This document shows positions 2,630 through 10,711 of a stretch of DNA of 12,762 nucleotides, in pieces. Source of the stretch: Candidatus Segetimicrobium genomatis. GTDB lineage: Bacteria > Sysuimicrobiota > Sysuimicrobiia > Sysuimicrobiales > Segetimicrobiaceae. The translations under genes and the position numbers were made by a program. Position 1 is the stretch's first letter; each line of letters begins with the position of its first letter. A model generated the notes under the pieces. It saw only the letters and a program-made list of their open reading frames with translations, was not told the DNA's origin and made no database searches. The stretch spans positions 1,333-14,094 of the forward strand of contig VBAN01000227.1 of the NCBI GenBank assembly GCA_005882445.1, read 5' to 3'.

Positions 2630-3736
2630 TCAGCCGCGCAGGACCCGCGGCTCGATGGCTTCGGCTGCCCGCTGGGCCGCCGCGAGCACGCGCTTCAGGG
2701 GAACGCCGTGGCGCTCGGCGAGCGCGCGGCAGACGTCGAACTCCGGCGCCATGTTCAAGACCCCCGACCGGTCTTCGGCGATCTTGATCGGAACGGCGCC
2801 GTACTCGGTCTGGACCTCCACGCGCCGCCGGCGCGCGGCCAGGCGGGAGACCTCGTAGACGCGCACCCCGAGGGTGGTCGTCTCGGCGAGGAGGATGCCG
2901 TAGAGCGCCCGCACGCGGTCCGGGACCGCGAGGACGCGCAGCAGATGGCCGGGGCGGCCCTTCTTCATCACGGCCGGAATCGTCATGACATCCAGCGCGC
3001 CGGCGTCGAGCAGCCGCGCCGTCACGTGCGGATAGAGCTGCGGGTTCATGTCGTCGATGGACGTCTCCAGCACCGCGAGCCGCTCGGCGCGGTCCTCGTC
3101 AGACGGCGCGGCGTTGGCCCGAGGCGGGTCGGCCGCGCCCGCGCCGGTCCCGATCCGCTCGAGGCGCATCAAGGGCAGGGCGCCCCAGCGGGTCACGAGC
3201 GAGGACAGGAGCACCGCTCCCGTGGGCGTGAGCAGCTCACCGTCGAACTCGCCGGCATACACCGGCATCCCGGCGATCAGGGCCGAGGTCGCCGGCGCCG
3301 GCACCGGGACGGTCCCGTGGCCGGTCTTCGCCCAGCCCCGCCCGAGGTTCACCGGAGAGGCAATCAGGCGGTCCAGGTTGAGGGCCCGGACGCCGGCGAG
3401 CACGCCAACGATGTCGACCAGCGTGTCCACGCCACCCAGTTCGTGCAGATGCACCTCCTCGATCGGCGTCGCGTGGATCTCCGCCTCGGCGGCGGCGAGC
3501 CGCCGCAGCACCACGGCGGCGCTGTCGCGGAAGGCCGGATCGAGAGGGGCGTCGGCGAGCACACGGGCGAGGACGGGGTAGCGCCGGGAATGGGGAGGCT
3601 CGGTCTCCTGGACCTCGACACGCACGGCGGGGACGCTCTGCCGGTGCACGCGGCCGACCGTGATGCGGACGGGAACGCCGCCCAGCAGCATGTCGCCGCT
3701 GGCCCCGCTGGCGCAATCAAGGTACCCGATGCGCAT
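2630..3736 (-). CDS. larC: LarC, nickel insertion protein of NPN cofactor synthesis
   Basis: LarC inserts nickel into pyridinium-3,5-bisthiocarboxylic acid mononucleotide in a CTP-dependent step, giving the nickel-pincer nucleotide used by LarA-type enzymes. 368 residues from ATG 3736, which overlaps the end of larB by 20 nt. Landmarks: DCASGASGDMLLG (7-19), EEVHLHELGGVDTLVDIVG (93-111), PVPAPAT (144-150), LTPTGA (169-174), LETSIDDMNPQ (223-233), MKKGRPG (257-263) and ETTTLGVR (285-292). The LarC1 and LarC2 parts are in one continuous frame, unlike Lactiplantibacillus plantarum, where a programmed frameshift joins them. One oddity: GDMLLG runs almost directly into VRITVGRV, so roughly 20-25 residues usually found there are missing in frame. 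An earlier in-frame ATG at 3802 lies wholly inside larB and adds no family sequence. Confidence 0.93.
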   Translation of the reverse strand: MRIGYLDCASGASGDMLLGGVPVRITVGRVHRQSVPAVRVEVQETEPPHSRRYPVLARVLADAPLDPAFRDSAAVVLRRLAAAEAEIHATPIEEVHLHELGGVDTLVDIVGVLAGVRALNLDRLIASPVNLGRGWAKTGHGTVPVPAPATSALIAGMPVYAGEFDGELLTPTGAVLLSSLVTRWGALPLMRLERIGTGAGAADPPRANAAPSDEDRAERLAVLETSIDDMNPQLYPHVTARLLDAGALDVMTIPAVMKKGRPGHLLRVLAVPDRVRALYGILLAETTTLGVRVYEVSRLAARRRRVEVQTEYGAVPIKIAEDRSGVLNMAPEFDVCRALAERHGVPLKRVLAAAQRAAEAIEPRVLRG

Positions 3737-4535
3737 CGTCGTCGCAGAGCGCCGTCTCCCCGGAGGGCTCCTCCGGGGAACGCCGCGCCTCCGGTCCGGC
3801 ATTGATCACCGCGGCCAGGTACCCGGCGCCGAAGCCGTTGTCGATGTTGACGACCGCCACGCCGGGCGCGCAGGCGTTGAGCATGGTCAGCAGCGGCGCG
3901 ACCCCGCCGAAGTGCGCGCCGTAGCCCACGCTGGTCGGCACCCCGATCACCGGCGCACGGGTGAGCCCGGCCACCACCGCGGGCAGCGCCCCATCCATCC
4001 CGGCCACCACGACCAGCGCGCGCGCCCGCTCGAGAAGATCCCGCTGCGCCCCGAGCCGGTGGAGGCCCGCCACCCCGACATCGTAGGCCCGGGTCACCGA
4101 CGCCCCCATTGCTTCGGCCGTGCACGCGGCTTCCTCGGCCACGGCGAGGTCCCCGGTTCCGCCGGTCAGGACCCCGACGCTGCCGATCCGGCGCTCGGGG
4201 AGCGCCCCGATCACGACCATCGACGCGGCGGGGACGTGACGCGCACCCGGAAACGCGCCCAACGCCGCCGCGGCCACCTCCGGGCCGGCGCGGGTGAGCA
4301 GCACGGGGGCCCCGGCGCCGTGGAGCGTTTCGGCGATCCGAATGATTTGCTCGGCCGTCTTGCCCGGGCAGTACACGGCTTCCGCGGCCCGCCGCCGCAG
4401 GAGCCGGTGGGTGTCCACCTTGGCAAACCCCAGGTCCGCGAACGGCAGCCAGCGGAGCGCCGCGAGCGCCGCCTCGACGCTCGTGCGGCCCGCGCGGACA
4501 TCGCGCAGCAGCCGGTCAAGCGCTTCCTCGTTCAC
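3717..4535 (-). CDS. larB: LarB, pyridinium-3,5-biscarboxylic acid mononucleotide synthase
   Basis: LarB carboxylates nicotinic acid adenine dinucleotide at C5 and splits the phosphoanhydride, releasing AMP and the biscarboxylated mononucleotide, the first committed step to the NPN cofactor. 272 residues from a GTG start. The GTG overlaps the larE stop as GTGA, so translation is probably coupled. The N-terminal part carries DTHRLLRR and EAVYCPGKT (53-60). The C-terminal part is PurE-like (AIR carboxylase fold), with AYDVGVAGLHRL (150-161), VVVAGMDGALPAVVAG (176-191) and GVPTSVGYGAHFGG (198-211). Cys222 in LNACAPG matches, by position and context, the cysteine that forms the transient pyridine adduct in L. 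plantarum LarB (Cys221). The frame stays open far upstream of GTG, but that part is antisense-like shadow inside larE. Confidence 0.94.
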   Translation of the reverse strand: MNEEALDRLLRDVRAGRTSVEAALAALRWLPFADLGFAKVDTHRLLRRRAAEAVYCPGKTAEQIIRIAETLHGAGAPVLLTRAGPEVAAAALGAFPGARHVPAASMVVIGALPERRIGSVGVLTGGTGDLAVAEEAACTAEAMGASVTRAYDVGVAGLHRLGAQRDLLERARALVVVAGMDGALPAVVAGLTRAPVIGVPTSVGYGAHFGGVAPLLTMLNACAPGVAVVNIDNGFGAGYLAAVINAGPEARRSPEEPSGETALCDDDAHRVP

Positions 4536-5476
4536 GGGCGGCCCGTCCCGGGCGTCACGCCCTGCCCCGGTCCCGCCCCTCCGGCATCGCCGGGCACTGC
4601 CCCGCCCTGCGCGCGGAGCGCCTCGGCGGCAAGCCGGCCCGAGCGCAGCCCGCGCCGATCCACCTCGACCTCGCGAAATCCGAGGGCCACCAGCGCAGCG
4701 GCGACCCGGGGCGCCTCGGCGAGCAGCCGGGGGACCGCGGGCAGCGGCACCTCGATCCGGGCGACCGCGCCGTGATGGCGGACCCGGACGTCGGGGAAGC
4801 CGAGCCGGTGGAGCACCCGCTCGCCTTCCTCGATCTGGCGGAGCGCCCCGAGCGTCACCGGAGTGCCGTGCGGGAGCCGGGACGCCAGGCAGGGCGACGC
4901 CGGCTTGTCCCACGCCTCCAGACCCCGCGCGCGGGCCAGATTCCGGATCTCCGCTTTGGTCAGCCCGGCCTCGAGCAGCGGCGCCCGCACGGCGAACTCG
5001 GCGGCGGCGCGCATCCCCGGCCGGTACTCCCCGCGGTCGTCCGCGTTCGCGCCGTAGGCCACGGCCGGCAGCCCGAGCTCCGCGGCCAAGGCCCCGAGGC
5101 GCGTGAAGAGCGCGGCCTTGCAGAAATAACACCGCTGCAGGTCGTTCCGCCGGTAGCGCGGATCGTCGAACTCGTCCGTCTCGACGACGACGTGGCGCGC
5201 GCCCATGGCCGAGGCGAGCGCCCGCGCGGCCGCCAGCTCATCGCGGGCGAGCGACGGAGAGACCGCGGTCGCGCCGACGCAGCGCTCCCCCAAAACATCG
5301 GCGGCCGCGGCCAGCAGATACGCGCTGTCGACGCCCCCCGAAAACGCCACCACCACGCCGCGGAGCGCGCGCAGCGCCTCCTCCAGCCGGGCCCGCTTGG
5401 ACTCCAGGGGGAGGGATTCCGGCGCGGGACCCCGCTCGGGCGCGGGGCCTGGCTCGGGCACAACGCGCTCGGCCAT
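4532..5476 (-). CDS. larE: LarE, ATP-dependent sulfur insertase of NPN cofactor synthesis
   Basis: LarE adenylates the two carboxylates of the LarB product and replaces an oxygen of each with sulfur. 314 residues. The PP-loop ATP pyrophosphatase motif SGGVDS is at 46-51, with RCYFCK at 115-120, YGANADDRGEYRPG at 141-154 and KPASPCLASR at 191-200. Cys196 corresponds to the sulfur-donating Cys176 of L. plantarum. Cys116 and Cys119 are also present, which is the three-cysteine pattern of LarE proteins that carry a [4Fe-4S] cluster (Thermotoga maritima type) instead of sacrificing their own cysteine. ATG 5476 immediately follows the TAA of the LarA-like gene (no gap), with GGGGAG 8 nt upstream. 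Both ends are low complexity: a Pro/Glu-rich head (residues 7-25) and a Gly/Pro tail after about residue 290. Confidence 0.94.
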   Translation of the reverse strand: MAERVVPEPGPAPERGPAPESLPLESKRARLEEALRALRGVVVAFSGGVDSAYLLAAAADVLGERCVGATAVSPSLARDELAAARALASAMGARHVVVETDEFDDPRYRRNDLQRCYFCKAALFTRLGALAAELGLPAVAYGANADDRGEYRPGMRAAAEFAVRAPLLEAGLTKAEIRNLARARGLEAWDKPASPCLASRLPHGTPVTLGALRQIEEGERVLHRLGFPDVRVRHHGAVARIEVPLPAVPRLLAEAPRVAAALVALGFREVEVDRRGLRSGRLAAEALRAQGGAVPGDAGGAGPGQGVTPGTGRP

Positions 5477-6772
5477 TTAGAAATCTCCCCAGACCGGCCG
5501 GGCGCCCACGGGTACCGGGGCCAGCGGGGGGATGAGCGACCCGTCGCCGCTCCACTCCAGGGCGAACGGCTTCGAGATCGTCCTGGCGTGAGGCTCGAGG
5601 TGGGGGACGAGAGCGGTGGAGACCGCCACCTCCCCAAGCGTGAGCGTGTTCCGGATATAGACGATCCGCGCGTCCCCCTCGGCCGGCCGCTGGGTGGTCA
5701 GCATCGCGGTGGACACCGCATCCCGATCGGTGAGCAGGATCATCGGGAGGCGCGAGCCCTCCGTGATCGCCGCCGTGATCCCGTTCATGTAGGTCGGCTC
5801 GAGGTCGATCTTGTCCACCACCCGCTGGGAGATGATATCCGCCATGCCCACCCCGGTCGCATTGCCGTGGGTCTCCTCGGTGAGGTCGAGCACCGCGATC
5901 CGCCTGACCGTCGGGCCGCCCGTCACAAGCGGCGAGAGGTACCGGCCGGTGATGTTGGGATCCATCCCATCCCCGCTGATGTTCTTGCCGATCTCCTGCA
6001 CGATCAGGACATCGATGTCCCGGACGGGGAGGCTCGCCATCAAGCTCCGGGCGCGGGTCAGCAGCACCGGCTCCCGGTCGATGAAGGGTGCAATACCGCA
6101 CATGATCTGCGTCCGAGCGCGCACGATCTCCCACGCCTCTCGCAGGCGCGGCCCCAGATCCTTCGGTCCCGTCGCGTGGATCGACATCGCCCCGCGCTGC
6201 TTCCCGGCGCCGATCACGGCCATCTTGATGAGGCCGCTTTCGAACGGGCCCCGGAAGAGGGTGTGCGGCTTCACGCGGCCGATGACGACCACGGCGTCCG
6301 CGGCGTGCGCGCGGCGATCCCAGTAGACCCCGGACCCGTCGGCGAGGCGCCCCAACTCGACAACGTCCATGGACGAGACGACCGGCGCCCCCACCCGCGC
6401 CTCGGTCACCCCGAGCGCGGCCAGGACCTCCACCTGCCCCTCCGCGGTGGCCCCGCCGTGGCTCCCCATGCCGGGAAACACGAAGGGCCGGGCGCCGTGC
6501 CGGCTGAGGGCCTGCACGACGGCGGCCGCGATCCGATCGATCTCGGCGACCCCGCGGCTTCCCACCGCCACGGCCACGGTGCCTCCCTTGGGGATCCGGC
6601 GGGCCACCTCGGGCGCGTCGAATTGGCGGCGGATCTCCGCGTCCACATCGCACCGGCCCGGGGTCGCCCACCGCTGGGCCACACGCACCATCTGGGGGAA
6701 CTGCACCTCGCGGGGCGCCCGGATCCCCCGCAGGCCGCGCGGGGCCGTTCGGGCCAGATCGACCTGCGTCAT
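5477..6772 (-). CDS. LarA-like nickel-pincer enzyme (lactate racemase superfamily, DUF2088)
   Basis: Predicted NPN-dependent hydroxyacid racemase or epimerase. 431 residues from ATG 6772. The N-terminal domain has GSRGVAEID (71-79) and GMGSHGGAT (101-109). Next come GRVKPHTLFRGPFESGLIK (165-183), AVIGAGKQRG (185-194) and MSIH (196-199). Arg73, His105, His170, Lys183 and His199 match LarA Arg75, His108, His174, Lys184 (covalent NPN thioamide) and His200 (nickel ligand). The spacings are nearly identical, and Lys-to-His is 16 residues in both. A GKNISGDGMDPN stretch (262-273) follows in the C-terminal half. Sequence between the motifs differs much from true lactate racemase (no GFSGGAK, for example), so the substrate is unknown. 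ATG 6778 and ATG 6808 are also in frame; ATG 6772 has the best-placed Shine-Dalgarno. The gene sits directly in front of larE, larB and larC, so cofactor makers and user are co-transcribed. Confidence 0.88.
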   Translation of the reverse strand: MTQVDLARTAPRGLRGIRAPREVQFPQMVRVAQRWATPGRCDVDAEIRRQFDAPEVARRIPKGGTVAVAVGSRGVAEIDRIAAAVVQALSRHGARPFVFPGMGSHGGATAEGQVEVLAALGVTEARVGAPVVSSMDVVELGRLADGSGVYWDRRAHAADAVVVIGRVKPHTLFRGPFESGLIKMAVIGAGKQRGAMSIHATGPKDLGPRLREAWEIVRARTQIMCGIAPFIDREPVLLTRARSLMASLPVRDIDVLIVQEIGKNISGDGMDPNITGRYLSPLVTGGPTVRRIAVLDLTEETHGNATGVGMADIISQRVVDKIDLEPTYMNGITAAITEGSRLPMILLTDRDAVSTAMLTTQRPAEGDARIVYIRNTLTLGEVAVSTALVPHLEPHARTISKPFALEWSGDGSLIPPLAPVPVGARPVWGDF

Positions 6773-6778
6773 CGTCAT

Positions 6779-6784
6779 CCCTCC
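6779..6784 (-). promoter_or_regulatory. Ribosome binding site deciding the LarA-like start
   Basis: GGAGGG on the minus strand, 6 nt before ATG 6772 and touching ATG 6778. This spacing favours ATG 6772 over the two upstream in-frame ATGs. Confidence 0.6.
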
Positions 6785-6791
6785 ACCGCCG

Positions 6792-7274
6792 TCAGAGTTT
6801 GTAGCCAATCTTCCGCAGCAGCTCGTGCCGGGCGCCCGCCTCCCCCGCGCCTTCGACGCCCAACGGCGGCTGACCGTCCACCACGCCCAGCACGCCGCGT
6901 CCCCGCGCCGTGGCGGCGACGATCACCTCCACGGGATTGGCGGTCGCGCAGTAGACCTGGCAGACCTCCGGCACCTGCCGCACCGCGCCGAGCACATTCA
7001 CCGGGTAGGCGTTGCCGAGAAAGATCAGGAAGGTGTGCCCGCACCCGACCGCGAGCGCGTTCCGGGCCGCCAGGTCGACCAGGCCGGGGTCGGTGCCGGA
7101 GGTGCGGACGAGGCGCGGCCCGCTGGCTTCGCAGAACGCCAGCCCGAACCGGATGCCGGGCACGGCGCCGGCGAGGACCTCGTGGAGATCCTCGACGGTC
7201 TTGATGAAATGCGACTGGCCGAAGATCAGGTTGAGCCCCTCCGGGTTTTCGATCGGCACCGCGTGCAGCTCCAT
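6792..7274 (-). CDS. Adenosine-specific kinase family protein (PF04008, DUF355)
   Basis: 160 residues, the full length of this compact family, which is known mainly from archaea and some deep bacterial lineages and is annotated as an adenosine-specific kinase on limited evidence. Hallmarks run along nearly the whole chain: GQSHFIKTVEDLHE (19-32), GIRFGLAFCEASGPRLVR (40-57), YPVNVLGAVRQVPEVCQVY near 90-108, CATANPVEVIVA, GRGVLGVVDGQPPLGVE and the terminal LRKIGYKL. The start ATG 7274 has GGAGG 8 nt upstream. An earlier ATG at 7409 would add 45 residues of low-complexity sequence through the divergent promoter region. It is the first gene of the lar operon, 19 nt before the LarA-like gene. A role in recycling adenosine nucleotides released by LarB or LarE is possible but is only inference. 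Confidence 0.9.
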   Translation of the reverse strand: MELHAVPIENPEGLNLIFGQSHFIKTVEDLHEVLAGAVPGIRFGLAFCEASGPRLVRTSGTDPGLVDLAARNALAVGCGHTFLIFLGNAYPVNVLGAVRQVPEVCQVYCATANPVEVIVAATARGRGVLGVVDGQPPLGVEGAGEAGARHELLRKIGYKL

Positions 7275-7408: not shown

Positions 7409-8098
7409 ATGCACCTGCTCAGAGAACGCGATGCCGAAGTCGTGCGCGGACGGCTGGCGGCGCTCACCCAGCCCGTACGCCTCGTCTATTTCACCGAGGG
7501 CACCTCGGGGCTCGTCATCCCGGGGCGGGAGTGCCTGTACTGTGGCGAGACCCTGCGCCTGCTGGAGGACGTCGTCAGCTGCTCGGGACAGGTCACCCTC
7601 GAGGTGCACGACCGGATCAGCGACCCCGCGTCGTCCACCGCGTATGGCGTCGACAGGGTCCCCGCGATCGTGGTGCTGGGCGCGCGCGACTACGGGATCC
7701 GCTACTACGGCCTCCCGGCCGGCTACGAGCTCGCCACGCTGCTGGACATCATCGTGGATGCCGGACGGGGGACCGCGGACCTCGAGGCCGCGACGCGGGC
7801 GGCGGTCGCGCAGCTGCCCGCGGACGTGCACCTCCGGGTCTTCGTCACCCCCACCTGACCGCACTGCCCGAGCGCAGCCAGGCTGGCTGCGGCCCTTGCG
7901 ATCGAGAGCGCGCGCATCCGAACGGACATCATCGAGGCGACAGAGTTCCCGGACCTCGTCGCCAGATACGCGGTGCGGGGCGTGCCGAAGACGATCCTCA
8001 ACGACCGCCTCTTCATCGACGGCGCGGTCCCCGAGCCGGATCTGGTCGCCGCGGTGAGCCAGGCGGCCGGGCAGGCCGTCCCGGAGGCACGGACATGA
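7409..8098 (+). CDS. Protein disulfide oxidoreductase (PDO/glutaredoxin-like), predicted selenoprotein with in-frame UGA
   Basis: Two tandem thioredoxin-fold domains, as in Pyrococcus PDO (about 226 residues); here 229 with one recoded codon. The N-terminal domain carries CLYC (Cys42-Cys45) and a cis-Pro loop RVPAI (Pro85). The C-terminal domain reads VFVTPT, then TGA as codon 150, then PHCP (Cys153), later IIEATEFPDLVARYAVRGVPK with cis-Pro193. The family has CPYC at this place, so the TGA replaces exactly the nucleophilic first Cys and predicts a UxxC redox centre. The 79 codons after TGA keep about 89% G/C at third positions. The frame ends in an ATGA overlap with the OsmC-like gene. A hairpin with a G-rich loop lies just downstream of the TGA. 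The role would be cytoplasmic dithiol-disulfide exchange. Alternatives: a nonsense mutation or a sequencing error changing TGC to TGA. A conventional call would stop at 7858 with 149 residues. Confidence 0.8.
7856..7858 (+). other. In-frame UGA, predicted selenocysteine codon (Sec150)
   Basis: TGA in the position of the first active-site Cys of the C-terminal CxxC motif. It differs by one base from TGC, the Cys codon used at 7865-7867. Other genes here (larC, larB, larE, the kinase-like and OsmC-like genes) use TGA as a normal stop, so general UGA reassignment is not the explanation. Confidence 0.75.
7873..7891 (+). promoter_or_regulatory. Candidate bacterial SECIS hairpin
   Basis: Eight consecutive Watson-Crick pairs, C7873-G7891 through A7880-U7884, close the loop G7881-G7882-C7883. 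Opening the last A-U pair gives a five-base AGGCU loop. The hairpin begins 14 nt and its loop 22 nt after the UGA, inside the coding region, as bacterial SelB-binding elements do. G at the first loop positions fits the bacterial SECIS pattern as I know it. GC-rich DNA can form such stems by chance. Confidence 0.6.
8083..8087 (+). promoter_or_regulatory. Ribosome binding site of the OsmC-like gene, inside the PDO reading frame
   Basis: GGAGG, 7 nt before ATG 8095, lying within the last codons of the UGA-extended PDO frame. It decides ATG 8095 as the start and, with the ATGA overlap, implies coupling to translation of the full PDO frame. Confidence 0.65.
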
Positions 8099-8523
8099 AC
8101 ACCACGATCCGCTGGACGGCGGGCATGCAGTTCGAGGGGACCGGGGAAGCGGGGGCGGCCATCACGATGGATGCGACCCCGGAGCACGGCGGAGGCGGGA
8201 GCGGGCCGTCTCCGATGGAGACGGTGCTCCTGGCCCTGGGCGGCTGCACCGGGATGGACGTGGTCGGCATCCTCACCAAGATGCGGGCGCCGCTGGCGGG
8301 GCTGGAGATCCGTGTGGCCGCCGATCGCGCGGAGGACCACCCCAAGGTCTTCACGCGGATCGCGCTTGAGTACGTCTTCTTTGGGGCCGGCCTCCGGCCC
8401 GAGCAGGTGACGCGCGCCGTGGAGTTGAGCCAGACGCGCTACTGCTCGGTCTCCGCGATGCTGCGCCGGATCACGGAATTCACGTACACGTGGCGGATCG
8501 AGGAGGCGCCCCCGGGCGCCTGA
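8095..8523 (+). CDS. OsmC/Ohr-family protein
   Basis: 142 residues, typical of the OsmC-like group of small cytoplasmic thiol-dependent hydroperoxide reductases. The two redox cysteines are in conserved settings: Cys51 in LLALGGCTGMDVV and Cys117 in RYCSVSAML. The SPMETVLLALG stretch just before Cys51 is the usual core helix. It resembles the OsmC/YhfA-like branch rather than Ohr, but the exact substrate is not predictable. The start ATG overlaps the PDO stop (ATGA) and has GGAGG 7 nt upstream. The upstream PDO is an obvious candidate to re-reduce its Cys51-Cys117 disulfide, which would make the pair a small peroxide-defence module (inference). The gene ends 31 nt before the convergent pilU gene. 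Confidence 0.92.
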   Translation: MNTTIRWTAGMQFEGTGEAGAAITMDATPEHGGGGSGPSPMETVLLALGGCTGMDVVGILTKMRAPLAGLEIRVAADRAEDHPKVFTRIALEYVFFGAGLRPEQVTRAVELSQTRYCSVSAMLRRITEFTYTWRIEEAPPGA

Positions 8524-8554: not shown

Positions 8555-9616
8555 CTAGACGAGGCCCCGGAGCCGAAGCCGGATGTCGTTGGGGCTGTCC
8601 GCGTAGTGCATCCCGGTTTCGGTGTCGATCACGGCCTCCTGGATGAGCGCGTAGACCGCCTGATCGAAGGTCTGCATCCCCTCCCGCGTCCCCGCCTGCA
8701 TCGCCGCGCGCAGCCCGGAGATATTGCCTTTCTTCAGCAGTTCGCGGATGTGCGGGGTGGCCACCATCAGCTCCAGGGCCAGCACCAGCCCCTTCCCGTC
8801 GGACCGCGGGATCAGCCGCTGGGAGACCACCGCCAGCAGGTCGAGCGAGAACAACAACTGGACGCTCTCGTGGGCTTCCGCGGGGAAGAACCGGAGGATC
8901 CGCTCGATCGTCTGGCTCGCGTTCGTCGAGTGCAGGGTGCTCAGGACGAGGTGGCCGGTCTCGGCAAAATGCACGGCGGCGGTCGCGCTCTCAGCGTCCC
9001 GCATCTCGCCGATGAGGATGACGTCGGGCGTCTGCCGGAGGGCGTCCCGCAGCGCCATGTGGAACGAGTCGCAGTCGGAGCCGATCTCCCGCTGGCTCAC
9101 CAGGCTCCGCTGATCGGCGTGGACGAACTCGATGGGGTCTTCGATCGTCACGATATGGCCGGGCGCGTGGCGGTTGCGGTAGTCGATCATCGACGCGAGG
9201 GTGGTCGACTTCCCCGACCCGGTGGGGCCGGTCACCAGGACCAGCCCGCGCTGGCCGAGCGCCAGATCGGCGATCATCTTCGGGAGCCGGAGTTCCTCGA
9301 ACGACGGGATCTCGCTCTTGATCCTCCGGATGACGATCGCCGGCATCGACCGCTGCATGTAGATGTTCGCGCGGTACCGTCCCAGGGCCGGGGTGTGGTA
9401 GGCGAGGTTCACCTGCTGCCACTCCTCGAACTCCTTGCGGTGCCGCGGCTGCATCAGCTGCCCGGCCAGCCGCTCCACCGCCTCGGGGGTGAGCGGGGTC
9501 TCGCCGATGGGCATCAGCTGATTGGCGATCCGCAGCATCGGCGGGACCTCGGTCTTGATGTAGAGATCGGACGCCTGGCGGCTGACCATATGAATGAGCA
9601 GGTCGTTGATCTCCAC
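8555..9616 (-). CDS. pilU: Type IV pilus retraction ATPase PilU
   Basis: 353-residue secretion ATPase of the PilT/PilU branch, which acts as a hexamer at the inner-membrane base of the type IV pilus to help PilT pull the fibre in. Domains: an N-terminal PAS-like part starting LLIHMVSRQASDLYI, then the RecA-like domain with Walker A GPTGSGKS (130-137), Asp box TIEDPIEF (157-164), Walker B DVILIGEMRD (198-207) and His box STLHSTNA (226-233). The C-terminus has GMQTFDQAVY (313-322) and ADSPNDIRLRLR, typical of PilU. The AIRNLIRE motif of PilT is replaced by HIRELLKK (289-296), also as in PilU. The start is GTG 9616, 3 nt after the pilT stop; the family's N-terminus begins there, and translation is probably coupled to pilT. 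Confidence 0.93.
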   Translation of the reverse strand: MEINDLLIHMVSRQASDLYIKTEVPPMLRIANQLMPIGETPLTPEAVERLAGQLMQPRHRKEFEEWQQVNLAYHTPALGRYRANIYMQRSMPAIVIRRIKSEIPSFEELRLPKMIADLALGQRGLVLVTGPTGSGKSTTLASMIDYRNRHAPGHIVTIEDPIEFVHADQRSLVSQREIGSDCDSFHMALRDALRQTPDVILIGEMRDAESATAAVHFAETGHLVLSTLHSTNASQTIERILRFFPAEAHESVQLLFSLDLLAVVSQRLIPRSDGKGLVLALELMVATPHIRELLKKGNISGLRAAMQAGTREGMQTFDQAVYALIQEAVIDTETGMHYADSPNDIRLRLRGLV

Positions 9617-9619
9617 GGG

Positions 9620-10711
9620 CTACCGCTTGGGCCGGAGGTCGGCGAGCTCGGGGCGGCCGCCCGCCGCGTCCTCCGCGAACGACTGCTTTTCGACCGCGAC
9701 CTTCAGCGCCTCGTCCGGGCTGATCTTCTTGTTCTTCACCAGGACCTTGAAGCTCTGGTCGAACGACTGCATGCCGTCGCGCGCGCCGGTCTGAATCGCC
9801 GAGGGGAGCTGATGGATCTTGTTCTCGCGGATGATGTTCCGGATCGCCGCCGTGCTCACCATGATTTCCATGGCCGCCACCCGCCCGCCGCCGTTCAGGG
9901 CGGTGACCAGCGTCTCAGCGACCACGCCCAGCAGCGACTCGGCGAGCTGGACGCGGATCTGCTCCTGCTGGTGCGGGGGAAAGACGTCGACCACCCGGTT
10001 GATCGTCTGCGGCGCGTTGTTCGTGTGCAGCGTGGACAGGACGAGATGGCCGGTCTCCGCCGCGGTCAGCGCCAGGGCGATCGTCTCAAGGTCGCGCATC
10101 TCACCGACGAGGATGACGTCGGGATCCTCTCGCAGCGCGCTCCGTAAGGCCGCGGCGAACGACATCGTGTGGGGCCCGACCTCCCGCTGGTTGATGTTGC
10201 ACCGCTTGTGCGCGTGGACGAACTCGATGGGGTCCTCGACCGTGATGATGTGATCCTCGCGCCGTTCGTTCATGTGATCGATCATCGCGGCGAGCGTGGT
10301 CGACTTCCCGGAACCCGTGGGCCCGGTGATCAGGACCAGCCCGCGGTCCTGCATCGCCAGGTCTTTGAGGACCGGCGGCATCCCCAGGTCGTCGAGGGAC
10401 TGGACCCCCTCCGGGATGAGCCGCAGGACGGCGCCTTCCCCCAGGCGATGGAGGAAGGCGTTGATCCGGAACCGGCCCACCCCGTTCAGCTCGAGCGAGA
10501 AGTCGAGATCGTGGGTGGCTTCGAATTTCGCCTTCTGATCGTCGGTGAGGATGTCGTAGATCAGGGCGTGGATCTCCTCGCGGCCGAGCTCGGGCATGTC
10601 GAGCCGGGTGAGTTTGCCGTTGATCCGCAGCGTGGGCCGGGCCCCGGCGGTCAGGTGCAAATCGGAAGCGTGCAATTGCTTGGTTTGGATGAGCAGGTCG
10701 GTAATATCCAT
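9620..10711 (-). CDS. pilT: Type IV pilus twitching motility ATPase PilT
   Basis: 363-residue hexameric ATPase that powers pilus retraction, used for twitching motility, surface sensing and DNA uptake. N-terminal domain with LLIQTKQLHASDLHLTAG (6-23). RecA-like core with Walker A GPTGSGKS (130-137), Asp box TVEDPIEF (157-164), Walker B DVILVGEMRD (198-207) and His box STLHTNNA (226-233). The retraction-specific AIRNIIRE motif is at 289-296, followed by GMQSFDQS (313-320). It is thus a true PilT rather than a PilB extension ATPase. ATG 10711 has GGAGG 6 nt upstream. It heads a two-gene unit with pilU; no other pilus genes are in the window, so the rest of the machine must be elsewhere. The final 20 residues are a short variable tail. 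Confidence 0.95.
   Translation of the reverse strand: MDITDLLIQTKQLHASDLHLTAGARPTLRINGKLTRLDMPELGREEIHALIYDILTDDQKAKFEATHDLDFSLELNGVGRFRINAFLHRLGEGAVLRLIPEGVQSLDDLGMPPVLKDLAMQDRGLVLITGPTGSGKSTTLAAMIDHMNERREDHIITVEDPIEFVHAHKRCNINQREVGPHTMSFAAALRSALREDPDVILVGEMRDLETIALALTAAETGHLVLSTLHTNNAPQTINRVVDVFPPHQQEQIRVQLAESLLGVVAETLVTALNGGGRVAAMEIMVSTAAIRNIIRENKIHQLPSAIQTGARDGMQSFDQSFKVLVKNKKISPDEALKVAVEKQSFAEDAAGGRPELADLRPKR

Follow-up and report, generated by a model that had tools for sequence, protein, structure and literature searches.

The window analysed here is the whole 12,762-nucleotide stretch of contig VBAN01000227.1 from Candidatus Segetimicrobium genomatis, and at positions 7409–8098 of its forward strand it carries a reading frame with a single in-frame TGA. 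Translation starts at ATG 7409, with GGGAGGA just 5' of it, proceeds through 149 residues to the TGA at 7856–7858 (codon 150), continues for 79 sense codons and ends at a stop TGA (8096–8098). As a prior sequence-only reading had claimed, codon 150 occupies the place of the nucleophilic, first Cys of a CxxC, namely the second such motif of a two-domain protein disulfide oxidoreductase (PDO); the surrounding residues read VFVTPT-U-PHCP, and a VPK follows further on. With the TGA translated as U, the product comprises 229 residues, having CLYC in its first half (Cys42-Leu-Tyr-Cys45, 7532–7543) and UPHC in its second, in which the presumed resolving Cys is encoded by TGC at codon 153 (7865–7867) and is invariant in an alignment of 15 family sequences. 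The GC content at codon positions 1/2/3 is alike on both sides of the TGA (0.74/0.48/0.92 before, 0.73/0.53/0.89 after), such that the strong third-position bias noticed by the sequence-only reading indeed persists, and the overlap with the following start codon that it described is also confirmed, with ATGA (8095–8098) joining the PDO stop to the ATG of an OsmC-family gene on the same strand (8095–8523; PF02566, 66.6 bits). TGA serves as an ordinary stop as well: of 11 other window genes examined, 4 terminate with it. When the 2.5 Mb assembly was searched with a DNA pattern for TPT-TGA-P-(H or Y)-C-P, a single match was obtained, and the reversed control gave none.

Further genes flank this pair. 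On the minus strand lie genes for the nickel-pincer cofactor, LarC (2630–3802) and LarE (4532–5476), followed by a LarA-like isomerase of NCBIfam group 22 (5477–6808). An adenosine-specific kinase (PF04008, 6792–7274) is located divergently upstream of the PDO gene, and a kinase of this type has that position in every species of the genus with an identified PDO, three in all (represented by the window, L018 and L019). Beyond the OsmC gene, two adjacent minus-strand ORFs (8555–9616 and 9620–10711) look by eye like PilT-type ATPases, both containing TGPTGSGKSTTLA; a counterpart of the former is also found beside the PDO-OsmC pair in two congeners.

The 229-residue product belongs to the NCBIfam family TIGR02187 (PDO_seleno_TRX), scoring 224.5 bits against a cut-off of 185 over residues 6–218. 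It has the CxxC or UxxC expected in domain 2, as UPHC, and the CxxC of classical PDOs in domain 1, as CLYC; PDOs are described as having two CXXC motifs (PMC7465337). Searching the structure database with a sequence profile built from 15 family sequences returned archaeal and Aquifex PDOs as the closest solved relatives, with 1a8l matching over nearly the full length (E 2e-61). A model folded from the 15-sequence family alignment, with Cys substituted for Sec, reached a pLDDT of 91.1 and is predicted to form two tandem thioredoxin folds; its best PDB match by fold was again the P. furiosus PDO 1a8l (TM 0.87).

Selenocysteine insertion depends on dedicated genes, and selA, selB, selD and tRNA-Sec, which the sequence-only reading had proposed to look for, are all present in the assembly containing the window (2.50 Mb in 500 contigs, 64% complete). 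SelB scored 347 bits, above its cut-off, selA adjoins selB (494 bits, cut-off 267.9), and a tRNA-Sec gene lies on the same contig as the two (73.3 bits, gathering score 47). The selD gene has an in-frame TGA of its own, in the motif ACAGU (L014:1501-1650 on contig C115 of the window genome, G000), so that the selenophosphate synthetase is probably itself a Sec form. In a congener assembly with 6% contamination, G030, we observed two tRNA-Sec matches (C11:65169-65258 and C34:5051-5142, 73.9 and 71.1 bits) and also two SelB matches above the cut-off.

We then compared the gene across the class, which was represented by 43 genomes, the same 43 being returned by a phylum-wide search. A PDO homologue is present in 28 of them, and 30 of the 33 listed phylum matches were taken as loci for alignment. 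The codon aligned to position 150 is TGA in 21 of these loci and TGC or TGT in the other nine, and none of the 21 Sec rows contains a further internal stop. The two congeneric proteins, 92% and 78% identical to the window PDO, likewise have TGA at codon 150. Setting a 60-bit line for tRNA-Sec, because weaker matches resemble other tRNAs, we found a listed match of at least that score for 17 of 21 Sec-PDO genomes and for four of the seven with Cys forms only; SelB was above its cut-off in 16 of 21 and three of seven, respectively. The six Sec-PDO genomes with no listed tRNA-Sec and/or SelB comprise four that are less than 90% complete and two at 93%. Substitution patterns were analysed in seven pairs, three of which share the window's genus. 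The dN/dS ratio was 0.15–0.24 before the TGA and 0.04–0.29 after it, the closest pair involving the window having only nine differences after the TGA, four of them at third positions. Judged by these alignments, divergence past the TGA looks like that of coding sequence, and the decay that would mark a dead 3' half is not seen in these relatives.

Downstream of codon 150, we identified a putative SECIS hairpin within the coding sequence at 7873–7891, CGCAGCCA-GGC-TGGCTGCG, in which an 8-bp stem (7873–7880/7884–7891) encloses a GGC loop (7881–7883) whose first base is 22 nt past the UGA. Bacterial SECIS elements are described as being placed immediately 3' of the UGA, with a few of the known ones departing from the consensus (PMC9312934). 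When synonymous codons were redrawn, the stem length of the window was reached in about 1% of draws. A free hairpin scan at a score of at least 13 picked out 20 of the 37 Sec rows (two being copies) vs 1 of 72 Cys rows, though these rows are related genes and hence not independent. The covariation set consisted of the 21 phylum Sec genes less the truncated L044. In these 20 genes, 91.9% of the pair cells are formed, compared to 22–53% when the partner is slid by 1–3 columns, and seven cells are changed on both sides vs 2.1 in shuffles. Counted by pairs, both-side changes affect two of the eight, which is not clearly above the shuffles (their mean being 1.3, with 192 of 500 reaching at least two), and three of the eight pairs show no variation. 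Of the 21 phylum Sec genes, 19 use AGG for the Arg codon that enters the loop, which none of the nine phylum Cys genes does; AGG makes up 4.4% of the remaining Arg codons in the phylum Sec genes. Outside the phylum, 4 of 14 Sec rows and 8 of 63 Cys rows use AGG at this codon, which is thus not telling there, so the AGG signal is local. At the fixed place, 8 of the 34 Sec genes examined have no stem, some of these having one at a different spacing, and another 10 of 34 have a stem of only 4–5 bp, a length also attained by 11 of 72 Cys genes. The fold energy of the hairpin region was no better than that of shuffles (z 0.43 and -0.28), and the window had no Rfam match at gathering score. According to these alignments, a SECIS-type hairpin putatively follows the UGA; within the phylum its position is conserved and its stem covaries in part.

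To place the gene among database relatives, we considered the best 120 of 1146 matches among 7998 candidates scored. Whereas 77 of these 120 are 211–245 residues long, the remaining 43 are stubs of 149–166 residues that end at the site, in TPT (41) or TPS (2). That standard gene calling would yield a 149-residue stub, as the sequence-only reading had anticipated, is therefore borne out, and a recurrent annotation error is exposed, in which gene-calling pipelines miss the second half of the gene. The stubs have a CxxC within residues 31–60 in 42 of 43 cases, the exception being a 166-residue stub with shifted numbering, and the long relatives have the domain-1 CxxC in 77 of 77; the two-site form is therefore the rule near the window type.

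Could the TGA be something other than a Sec codon? It is a single base away from TGC or TGT and the assembly is fragmented into 500 contigs, so a sequencing or assembly error in an ordinary Cys PDO is conceivable. The same TGA, however, is kept by the separately assembled congeners at 92% and 78% identity and recurs across 21 of the 30 aligned phylum loci, and thus read error is excluded in practice; the codon is also TGA in 14 of the 78 distinct loci taken from named genomes, Acidobacteria and Chloroflexi among them, and 43 truncated database relatives stop at this site. The clean 149-residue protein obtained by standard gene calling, together with similar stubs in the databases, might alternatively reflect a nonsense pseudogene or a functional one-domain stub trailed by a dead 3' remnant. 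Against this reading stand the low dN/dS past the TGA in all seven pairs (few as the differences in the closest pair are), the phylum Sec rows free of other internal stops, the retention of UxxC, VPK and the start-stop overlap, and a genome equipped for Sec synthesis; we regard it as highly improbable. Equally slight is the chance that UGA is decoded by an ordinary tRNA for Trp, Cys or Gly. Although the inserted residue cannot be read from sequence alone, the genome has the Sec machinery, a SECIS-type hairpin is in place, the site alternates in the phylum with Cys codons only, and neighbouring genes use TGA as an ordinary stop. We therefore rejected read error, pseudogene formation and ordinary readthrough. 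Given the computed frame, predicted fold, conserved UGA, Sec machinery and hairpin, the window gene is very probably a selenoprotein of the PDO family; the Sec assignment of the earlier reading is well supported by machinery, recurrence, coding-like evolution and hairpin.

With Sec at codon 150, the following mechanism can be proposed. When selenium is available, SelB and Sec-tRNA-Sec would bind the hairpin just past the UGA, and Sec would be inserted. Without selenium, the ribosome would stop at the UGA and release a 149-residue stub containing domain 1 only, presumably a by-product. The Sec150 selenolate would be the attacking group of domain 2, reducing disulfides or peroxide-oxidised thiols of partner proteins, and Sec150 and Cys153 would then form a selenenylsulfide to be re-reduced by a flavoprotein resembling thioredoxin reductase. 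Thiol transfer by the S. solfataricus PDO depends fundamentally on its C-terminal site (PMC7465337), and this PDO relays electrons that come from NADPH via thioredoxin reductase on to peroxiredoxins (PMC7465337, PMC7278568). By analogy, the Sec of the window PDO may sit at the reductase site. In the 64%-complete window assembly no thioredoxin reductase scored above the cut-off, the best match, under the cut-off, ending at a contig end. The likeliest partner would be the adjacent OsmC-type thiol peroxidase: the OsmC-family protein is a probable redox partner encoded in the same operon, while our estimate that it is the main partner falls somewhat short of even. The Sec PDO might alternatively work mainly as a disulfide isomerase or oxidase in protein folding rather than as a reductase of OsmC. 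In keeping with such a role, the window PDO retains both active sites, and the isomerase activity of the S. solfataricus enzyme requires both (PMC7465337). Against it speak the OsmC gene overlapping the PDO stop and the existence of related Sec forms that have no domain-1 site. In addition, Sec pairs have a low redox potential, which favours reduction. On balance, we consider a main role in folding unlikely, if less so than the objections to Sec itself.

Returning to the proposed OsmC reductase, we surveyed gene neighbourhoods in a set of 107 PDO loci, 84 of which include 1.4 kb or more on each side. An OsmC-family gene is present in the fetched flanks of 13 of 107. These 13 loci come from the window's phylum, Chloroflexi and Bipolaricaulota, and OsmC lies beside Cys and Sec two-site forms alike. 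In six of the 13 (L017–L019, L023, L067 and L093) it comes directly after the PDO gene, no more than about 100 nt away and on the same strand; in four it is upstream on the same strand, and in three it is on the other strand. No OsmC gene was found beside any of the 18 Sec rows with a single site, either in the fetched flanks or, for seven of them, in longer flanks; the longer neighbourhoods, 12 in all, were searched for OsmC by BLAST. The neighbours of one-site genes had nothing in common among five ORFs from two such loci, two of which had a Pfam match. Upstream of the Sec PDOs at L033 and L039 there is an OsmC gene of a different type. Two more OsmC homologues of the window genome have an in-frame TGA (C408:1263-1550 and C252:2394-2678) and are possibly further selenoproteins; an OsmC-like selenoprotein family has been listed (PMC9312934).

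The 107-row set combined phylum loci with a scan of species genomes, from which the best 80 of at least 574 confirmed relatives were kept, a sample that favours window-like sequences. TGA is at the site in 16 of these 80, two being copies of loci already in the set; removal of the two copies and one truncated row reduced 110 rows to 107. The set divides into 72 Cys rows with and one without the domain-1 CxxC, and 16 Sec rows with and 18 without it. The domain-1 motif is thus missing in 18 of 34 Sec rows vs 1 of 73 Cys rows, the lone Cys exception, L081, having no first Cys. The suggestion of the sequence-only reading that Cys in domain 1 with Sec in domain 2 would be unusual is contradicted, since 16 of 34 Sec rows have this arrangement. 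The 18 one-site Sec rows represent two lineages, 14 coming from the window's phylum and four from Acidobacteria; L034 has lost just the first Cys of the domain-1 pair. The one-site state needs two changes on a careful 47-row tree and three on a quick 107-row tree. The window's genus (three rows) keeps both sites and groups with the 14 one-site rows, the 17 rows being held together at 96/88 in the 47-row tree. This tree puts the genus beside the one-site rows, the 14 of which come together at only 90/66, and the 107-row tree nests it among them (95). Three Sec rows from other genera of the same family (L033, L035 and L039) fall in a distant clade with Ktedonobacterales rows (96/87), so Sec PDOs have originated or moved on more than one occasion. 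The minimum number of Sec/Cys changes on the 107-row tree is eight.

Does Sec accompany loss of the domain-1 site? Four independent pairs differ in this site and Sec also differs in zero to two of them, always sitting on the side that lost the site. The pair test gave a median p of 0.5, and fewer than six such pairs cannot reach 0.05. As far as these sequences go, the association has the expected direction, there are too few events, and it is statistically not shown. It is a tentative and rather doubtful proposal that Sec in domain 2 made the domain-1 site dispensable, whereby two or more Sec-bearing lineages (Acidobacteria and further families of the phylum) would have lost the domain-1 CxxC to become one-site selenium reductases like the AhpF N-terminal domain, the window's genus having kept or regained two sites. 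We also tried a mosaic origin, with domain 1 from a Cys PDO and domain 2 from a one-site Sec PDO, using separate domain trees of 47 of the 107 rows. With motif columns omitted, the window clade and the phylum one-site Sec rows were together in both domains (86/80 and 81/90), and thus there was no good sign of a mosaic. In the domain-1 tree with motif columns, the window clade, the 14 one-site rows and eight Cys rows branch from one polytomy (84/72). The natural series Cys/Cys, Cys/Sec and none/Sec offers a test of the benefit that Sec brings to a disulfide oxidoreductase with two sites.

The family is known to include selenoproteins since at least 2006, when two members of a 'homolog of AhpF, amino-terminal domain' family were described, with Carboxydothermus and Symbiobacterium named (PMC1794560). 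It has since been listed as TIGR02187 with UxxC (PMC9312934, PMC13188914), and four such selenoproteins are given for Asgard archaea (PMC11227280). Because selenoprotein members of TIGR02187 are published, the kind is already known. Among the titles listed in our literature search there was no report of the window gene or of domain-1 site loss, and the main text of the CSP1-3 (Sysuimicrobiota) paper contains no word beginning with 'selen' (PMC11604079). Compared to the Sec proteins of Carboxydothermus hydrogenoformans (ABB15282.1), Symbiobacterium and Asgard archaea, the window PDO has the same family model and UxxC but a different host lineage, and it thereby extends the Sec form of this well-characterised enzyme family to a further lineage. 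The PDOs of Pyrococcus furiosus (1a8l), Aquifex aeolicus (2ayt/2ywm) and Aeropyrum pernix (2hls) have the two thioredoxin folds in common with it and match most of its length; the window protein differs from these enzymes, which we take to have Cys at both sites, in that Sec opens the domain-2 site. The N-terminal domain of AhpF (1zyn, 1hyu, 5h29) has the same double thioredoxin fold (TM 0.76–0.82 by query length), but whereas AhpF presumably has the second site only and is fused to a flavoprotein, the window PDO is a standalone protein with both sites.
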